Source: Planctomycetia bacterium
GTDB taxonomy: Bacteria > Planctomycetota > Planctomycetia > Pirellulales > Thermoguttaceae
DNA length: 34,314 nucleotides
Direction: 5' to 3'
NCBI GenBank assembly: GCA_030527705.1
Contig: JAUNAI010000011.1
Location: 1-34,314, forward strand
Positions 10,379 to 12,298 of this stretch are shown one piece after another. Below the pieces are notes generated by a model that was not told the DNA's origin, did no database searches, and was given only the letters and a program-made list of their open reading frames with translations. The position numbers and the translations under genes were made by a program. Numbering within the stretch: position 1 is the first letter of the stretch; every line of letters begins with the position of its first letter.

Positions 10379-10618
10379 ATGTTGGTTTTATCACGGAGAC
10401 CGGATGAAAGTCTCATTATCAACGAGAACATCGAAGTTGTAGTCCTCGGTGTGACAGGGAATAAGGTTTCGCTAGGAATAGTGGCACCATCAGACGTTTC
10501 GGTCTACCGAAAAGAATTGGCGAAGCCGAAAAAGAAGAAAAAAGTGACTGTTGCAGGTCCTAAAAAGACTTGGCATGTGCTATCAAAGATACAGCAGATG
10601 AATTCCATGATTCGTTAA
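10379..10618 (+). CDS. csrA: Carbon storage regulator CsrA (RNA-binding translational regulator)
   Basis: CsrA dimers bind GGA motifs in mRNA leaders and adjust translation and stability of messages for carbon storage, motility and biofilm genes. The start MLVLSRRPDESLIINENIEV and the later GIVAPSDVSVYRKEL match the family closely, including the conserved Arg of the VxR motif. It is 79 residues; the last ~30 (Lys-rich KPKKKKK and a tail) extend beyond the ~60-residue core. I chose the ATG at 10379 because AAGGAG lies 8 bases upstream and MLVLSR is the universal start; a longer frame from 10298 has no support. In this window glgC is a plausible kind of target, by family knowledge only. Confidence 0.95.
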   Translation: MLVLSRRPDESLIINENIEVVVLGVTGNKVSLGIVAPSDVSVYRKELAKPKKKKKVTVAGPKKTWHVLSKIQQMNSMIR

Positions 10619-11967: not shown

Positions 11968-12040
11968 TCTGTACCCTACTTTCTGATGGAAAATTAAAGG
12001 AAATCCCCCTCTTTCAATTTCAGAAAATTCGACAAGAAAT

Positions 12041-12069
12041 AAAAAAAGGGAGTACGTCTAACGTATCCC
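12041..12069 (-). terminator. Intrinsic terminator of the structured RNA
   Basis: On the minus strand GGGATACGT-TAG-ACGTACTCCC forms a stem of about nine pairs (one bulged base) and is followed by seven T residues. Its first base is the last base of the closing-helix strand. The segment GATACGT in its 5' arm can pair instead with ACGTATC at 12108-12102 upstream. Confidence 0.8.
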
Positions 12070-12264
12070 GGTACAGAGGTCTGCAACAACCCACAAAAAC
12101 AGATACGTGACGACTCCCGAAGGAGCCACACGCTCTTGTTTTTGTAAGTGCATAAATACATAGAATCCCCTAACCCTTAAGCTAGGGGTTCACACGCCGA
12201 AACGATTTAGATGTTGCAGTTTCTGTACCGTTAAGCGAATTCTGGACAAATAGAGTCCTATGTT
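12041..12264 (-). ncRNA. Structured leader RNA / candidate riboswitch or independent small RNA
   Basis: A consensus promoter lies upstream and an intrinsic terminator ends the RNA, about 224 bases apart. Inside, CGGTACAGA (12230-12222) pairs with TCTGTACCG (12077-12069), and CTGCAACA (12219-12212) with TGTTGCAG (12088-12081), forming a closing helix with a small internal loop. It encloses two hairpins: CCCCTA/TAGGGG at 12188-12167, and a longer one with ACAAAAACA/TGTTTTTGT at 12145-12093 capped by GGCTCC-TTCG-GGAGTC, a stable UUCG tetraloop. A small 5' hairpin GGAC/GTCC precedes them. The small membrane-protein gene follows 73 bases after the terminator. I do not recognise the class; it does not resemble 6S, tmRNA, SRP or RNase P RNA as I know them. 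Confidence 0.75.
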
Positions 12265-12270
12265 CATTTT

Positions 12271-12298
12271 ATTATAATCAGTAAATGAGAAATGTCAA
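12271..12298 (-). promoter_or_regulatory. Consensus sigma-70 promoter for the structured RNA
   Basis: On the minus strand TTGACA (12298-12293) and TATAAT (12276-12271) are both perfect consensus hexamers, separated by 16 bases. The expected transcription start is near 12264. Confidence 0.85.

Follow-up and report, generated by a model that had tools for sequence, protein, structure and literature searches.

Riboswitches and attenuation leaders are the described systems closest to an RNA that we analysed in a 34,314-nt stretch of DNA (the window) from a gut planctomycete genome. They share with it the position between promoter and gene, a covarying pseudoknotted core and mutually exclusive helices at an intrinsic terminator. 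Riboswitches for signalling nucleotides occur in several copies per genome, as does the family to which the window RNA belongs, and T-box and amino-acid attenuators likewise choose between alternative hairpins before a U-tract. Orphan structured RNA motifs, reportedly collected through comparative genomics by Weinberg et al. in 2010 and in later surveys, resemble the family in being found by covariation and in lying upstream of mixed or uncharacterised genes. Stand-alone regulatory RNAs, 6S RNA among them, have a similar length, a long hairpin and their own promoter and terminator.

The window family nevertheless differs from each of these systems. It matches no known riboswitch class, has few conserved unpaired bases, and contains a strand complementary to the whole terminator, not merely to its 5' arm. 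It lacks an Rfam match to the T-box or to 6S RNA, shows no leader peptide or codon run, precedes genes other than amino-acid genes, and, in contrast to 6S RNA, is multicopy and followed by downstream genes. Covariance-model scans of the window and 20 related loci against Rfam 15 at the gathering score gave no match except two nearby tRNAs, and relaxed E-values gave nothing credible for the window and related loci; a search of open-access text gave no paper describing the family. The RNA family appears to be new and undescribed, in line with the first-pass annotation, which had recognised no known class. Our best reading is a bistable, riboswitch-like transcription-attenuation leader acting in cis. 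With a probability of about 0.62, the window locus would be a member of a dispersed family of ~180-290-nt promoter-borne leaders that govern read-through by RNA polymerase in cis. Of the earlier proposal, a new structured leader before a gene, belonging to no known class and with two exclusive conserved folds at the terminator, is supported.

In the window, the promoter and all elements of the RNA lie on the minus strand. The promoter (TTGACA-16-TATAAT, 12298-12271) agrees with the consensus at 12 of 12 positions, and a similar promoter is found at the equivalent position in all 18 of the first-collected copies. The predicted RNA covers ~224 nt (12264-12041), with an MFE of -91.2 kcal/mol (z = -7.0). 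It starts with the 5' hairpin P0 (12244..12258), in which all four pairs carry two-sided changes and 95% of cells are paired. The closing helix P1 is formed by the 5' strand GGTACAGA (12229-12222) and the 3' strand TCTGTACC (12077-12070), and is separated from the second helix P2 (12219-12212 with 12088-12081) by an AA (12221-12220) that is nearly invariant across the copies. P3 (12163..12191) is a variable hairpin, present in the window MFE fold, which other copies lack or have with a different length and sequence. The long hairpin P4 comprises a 5' strand (12122..12149) with the outer stem and the inner strand X, the 3' inner strand Y (GGGAGTCGTCACGTATC, 12102..12118) and an outer 3' strand (12089..12101). 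A mini-helix of GGT (12091-12089) with ACC (12080-12078) encloses the 3' strand of P2. Directly after the core follow the terminator strand X' (12069-12048), which forms a terminator-like stem, and a U-tract of seven U (12047-12041).

The presumed controlled gene is a 70-aa ORF (11967-11755, minus strand) with one hydrophobic segment; it begins 73 nt past the RNA and has no match in Pfam. The perfect-hexamer promoter, the two-part closing helix with two hairpins (one with a UUCG loop), the terminator-like stem at 12069-12041 and the 70-residue ORF had all been described in the first-pass annotation and are all present. A radical-SAM gene lies upstream of the RNA on the same strand and a GH16 glycosidase gene downstream on the opposite strand. 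About 1.4 kb from the RNA, an ORF on the plus strand (10385-10618) was named CsrA-like by eye from its sequence.

The predicted core fold is strongly backed by covariation across 41 copies, which extends to the closing helix, the second helix, the long hairpin, the pseudoknot and the mini-helix. For the first 18 copies the covariation score is 0.343, slid controls staying at or below 0.115, and 27 of the 56 pairs carry two-sided changes. These values rise to 0.542 (slid controls, at most 0.103) and 45 of 56 pairs with the 41 copies, whose two-sided cells number 416 where sliding yields no more than 91; their alignment was fitted to the covariance model, which favours the structure. Despite this fitting, the core fold stands beyond real doubt because of the slid controls and because whole helices are exchanged between copies (GGTACAGA/TCTGTACC, CCAGTTGG/CCAACTGG and CAGCACGA/TCGTGCTG). 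The structured RNA with its closing helix, as first proposed, is real and above chance. In P1, seven of the eight pairs show two-sided changes and 95.5% of cells are paired; in P2, all eight pairs change on both sides. The outer and middle stem of P4 reach 19 of 21 pairs, the covariance alignments being imprecise for upper P4.

The pseudoknot joins TCGCT (12238-12234) with an AGCGA-like segment after P2 (12198-12194). It is 74.5% paired, compared with at most 43% in slid controls, and has two-sided changes in five of seven pairs, although it fits less well in the window copy than in its relatives. The mini-helix emerged from a free search for covarying pairs, which yielded one new pair (176-185, tenth strongest and outside the model). 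Together with its neighbours, this pair forms a GG(U/C):(A/G)CC helix around the 3' strand of P2; 23 of the 41 copies have U-A as its third pair, and 15 have C-G. Nearly invariant unpaired bases are few, mainly the AA and a CC, fewer than in a typical small-molecule aptamer, which counts against the riboswitch-like reading. The pseudoknot, the mini-helix, the multicopy nature of the RNA and the full-length complementarity to the terminator strand are absent from the first-pass annotation.

The family extends well past the window locus, and its copies, about fifteen in number, are dispersed in the window's genome ahead of different surface and membrane protein genes. A DNA search gave 19 matches in this genome, and among 30 relatives its matches were confined to the window's genus. 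Covariance models, built from 18 copies (R1) and then from 29 copies (R2), found matches in 18 of 119 Thermoguttaceae (Planctomycetota) genomes, belonging to five of 40 genera. The window's genome, an assembly of 514 contigs with 88% completeness, holds 17 of these matches, and each other matching genome holds one to five. Twelve of the 17 are clearly intact; of the others, C120 is divergent, C209 carries a replaced 5' end, and C435, C8 and C513 are truncated. Records carrying the terminator pattern are, where named, Thermoguttaceae or Planctomycetia MAGs, one of them from goat reticulum. The single convincing relative outside Thermoguttaceae, L080, is a weak match (E 9e-4), which by inspection contains the whole architecture: P1, AA, P2, a GGG/CCC mini-helix, P4, the terminator strand and the U-tract. 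Its adjoining ORF has a C-terminal region, VPEPASLLLVG, that resembles PEP-CTERM sorting signals. Neither 41 genomes of the family to which L080 belongs nor 298 genomes of the class (E <= 1e-4) contained an additional relative.

Three weak hits (L050, L073 and L074) were taken by eye as chance, and L051 looks like a partial copy. In L012, L027, L028, L030 and L033 the RNA copies are truncated or recombined, some retaining just the 5' or the 3' half. A block starting GTGTACTTTCGGAGATTATTGGGGGAAACA is found downstream of the RNA in the otherwise unrelated loci L022, L023, L024, L026 and L029, suggesting that the RNA was duplicated together with its flank.

The connection between core and terminator is made by strand Y, which can have as partner either X or the entire X'. 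In the window, Y (GGGAGTCGTCACGTATC) is close to the reverse complement of the full terminator strand, GATACGT(TA)GACG(T)ACTCCC, over 17-18 bp, and 37 of the 40 copies allow a Y:X' pairing of 16-21 bp. The mean energy of Y with its own X' is -25.6 kcal/mol, compared with -20.7 +/- 0.5 kcal/mol for permuted partners (40 copies). None of 20,000 permutations fell below -22.7 kcal/mol and the own energy is about ten standard deviations better, a figure not readable as a probability because the copies are related and perhaps represent six to eight independent lineages. The lower seven well-aligned Y:X' pairs contain 31 two-sided cells against at most six when slid, and two of the pairs (160-201 and 161-200) belong to the best-scoring covarying pairs that the model does not contain. 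Moreover, the pairing capacity is retained with differing sequence in L046, L045, L087, L066, L048, L072 and L080.

The local terminator hairpin is conserved as well: one of its pairs changes on both sides (U-A 25, C-G 10) and its base is paired in 97% of cells, so that both folds are kept. Comparison of the copies shows Y to be conserved for predicted pairing with X or with the whole of X', which is also able to fold on itself; at the level of sequence, mutually exclusive conserved helices connect the core to the terminator. The earlier observation that ACGTATC (12108-12102) complements GATACGT in the terminator holds and is above chance, but these 7 nt are part of a larger feature. A further motif, TTTCTTG, is conserved 1-8 nt past the U-tract, beyond the expected transcript end, in L001, L032, L034, L035, L040, L066 and others.

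For the window copy the computed energies are -8.8 kcal/mol (local hairpin) and about -25 to -27 kcal/mol (long hairpin formed with Y). The long Y:X' hairpin ends exactly at the U-tract and reaches -22 to -31 kcal/mol in almost every copy, while the local hairpin is usually ~-8 kcal/mol. In six copies the latter weakens to 0 to -2.3 kcal/mol, and most of these retain the U-tract; three of the six (L046, L055 and L067) still have the long hairpin at -25 to -28 kcal/mol. Since Y:X' takes in the 3' arm of the terminator up to the U-tract, it equally could be a stronger terminator, not an anti-terminator. The first-pass annotation had proposed an anti-terminator; the pairing behind that proposal is conserved, whereas its sign is uncertain. 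Under that assignment, the local hairpin would terminate, the folded core would leave it free (OFF) and Y:X' would anti-terminate (ON). This is unlikely, though it survives best among the rival accounts. The local hairpin, with the U-tract behind it, shows two-sided changes and survives in most copies, and a default fold that is OFF would fit a ligand-repressed riboswitch; yet a usual anti-terminator does not pair the terminator 3' arm to the U-tract, and the loss of the local hairpin in six copies, most with the U-tract in place, also argues against it.

As the long hairpin is much stronger and outlasts the lost local hairpin, read-through upon P4 formation and termination by Y:X' appear slightly more likely than the reverse, an assignment we make with low confidence. 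On this assignment, folding of the core (P0, P1, P2, the pseudoknot, the GGU/ACC mini-helix and P4) would commit Y to P4, so that just the weaker local terminator hairpin remains. If P4 is held open, Y and X' would form the long hairpin abutting the U-tract. The choice between the folds would be made by a signal, whether small molecule, protein or a further RNA. Nearest-neighbour calculation on six sequences favours the native fold over the alternative by 10-20 kcal/mol. Because the native fold is more stable and P4 is transcribed first, an active trigger would be needed, whichever sign applies. In both folds a stem abuts the U-tract, so a difference in termination is not certain.

The downstream genes favour control in cis. 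Of the 39 copies with a gene within 400 nt, 34 share their strand with the nearest downstream ORF (p = 2.4e-6), in agreement with the leader position first proposed, while the upstream genes are divided 26 same strand versus 15. Among the five exceptions, some (for example L031 and L013) have a plausible same-strand gene skipped by the automatic rule; L024 is among the few copies without an obvious same-strand gene, and in L017 an ORF on the opposite strand competes for the role. Gene starts are mostly 20-160 nt past the U-tract. RNA-gene pairs are retained across species or paralogues, with protein identities of 43% (L042/L049), 56% (L062/L047) and 45% (L030/L035). This retention and the strand bias both speak for control in cis, and they tell against a stand-alone family of trans-acting sRNAs with their own promoter and terminator and independent downstream genes. 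Such a family is rather improbable: the strong promoter, the very stable fold, the terminator, the several similar copies and a native fold by far more stable than the alternative would all suit it, but the conserved alternative pairing of the terminator would not.

The domains encoded downstream include CD225-like, ankyrin, Sel1, GYF_2, zinc-ribbon, BspA-type LRR, PEMT, glycosyltransferase and T2SS protein G, as well as a DUF4190-like domain below the Pfam cut-off; large surface-type proteins are also encoded there. Short Cys-containing peptides, possible modified-peptide precursors, occur ~205 nt after the L065 RNA (62 aa) and ~125 nt after the L084 RNA (~56 aa). For the proposed cis-acting leader, the several copies per genome would then form one regulon, mostly of membrane, secreted and repeat proteins. 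We tentatively suggest, at somewhat less than even odds, a new class of RNA switch, so far mainly in Thermoguttaceae, in which a hairpin strand swaps its P4 partner for a complete, self-folding terminator strand, and which would serve, in roughly a dozen copies within a single genome, a surface and membrane protein regulon under one signal. If true, this adds an undescribed regulator with an unusual three-strand switch to the Planctomycetota, in which, to our knowledge, few such RNA regulators are known. That several copies stand before genes for surface, membrane and repeat proteins unrelated to each other points to a signal common to gut and rumen species, and with the covariation model the ligand or factor can be searched for directly.

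The RNA could instead mark a mobile or recombining element whose copies spread with flanking DNA. The truncated and recombined copies, the shared downstream block and an expansion limited to one genome are compatible with this, yet it is very unlikely, given that the downstream genes differ between copies, no transposase occurs among the flanks read, and covariation of RNA pairs together with the promoter indicates selection on the transcript. The terminator pattern was unmatched in viral contigs, which also counts against a phage origin. GCTTAAC recalls the core motif of integron attC sites; this candidate was dropped, the copies being dispersed, promoter-bearing and 5' of genes.

A second GGTACAGA stands directly before the ATG of the 70-aa ORF (11975-11968, minus strand), and the first-pass annotation had read it as a start-site partner for the 3' strand of P1, with exclusive folds governing both termination and translation. 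The octamer is present, and the shared stretch amounts to nine bases, the longest match between P1 and downstream sequence; shuffles also reach 9 nt and other loci 10 nt. Most other copies have no counterpart, and the repeat is absent from L029 and L031, close relatives whose P1 strand is identical. When ten RNA segments were paired with their own downstream 150 nt, the duplex energies revealed no family-wide preference when a four-locus subfamily was set aside, so the start-site pairing is not borne out. The two conserved terminator folds stand, but control of translation at the ATG is not supported, since the repeat stays within the range of chance and lacks conservation; we judge it a coincidence. 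Translational control in the window copy, for which the exact octamer and a true repeat in the subfamily would speak, is the least probable account of all, with the repeat length within chance for the family and the identical closing-helix strands of L029 and L031 lacking it. Only the subfamily L047/L062/L063/L065 stands out in common substring and duplex energy. In L047, L062, L063 and the paralogue L065, from three species, the P1/P2 5' strand (CACACGAAAACTTCAGCAATTTTC) is repeated exactly over 16-24 nt right after the U-tract. In L062, L063 and L065, the stretch after this repeat, within the first 40 nt past the RNA, is complementary to the terminator.
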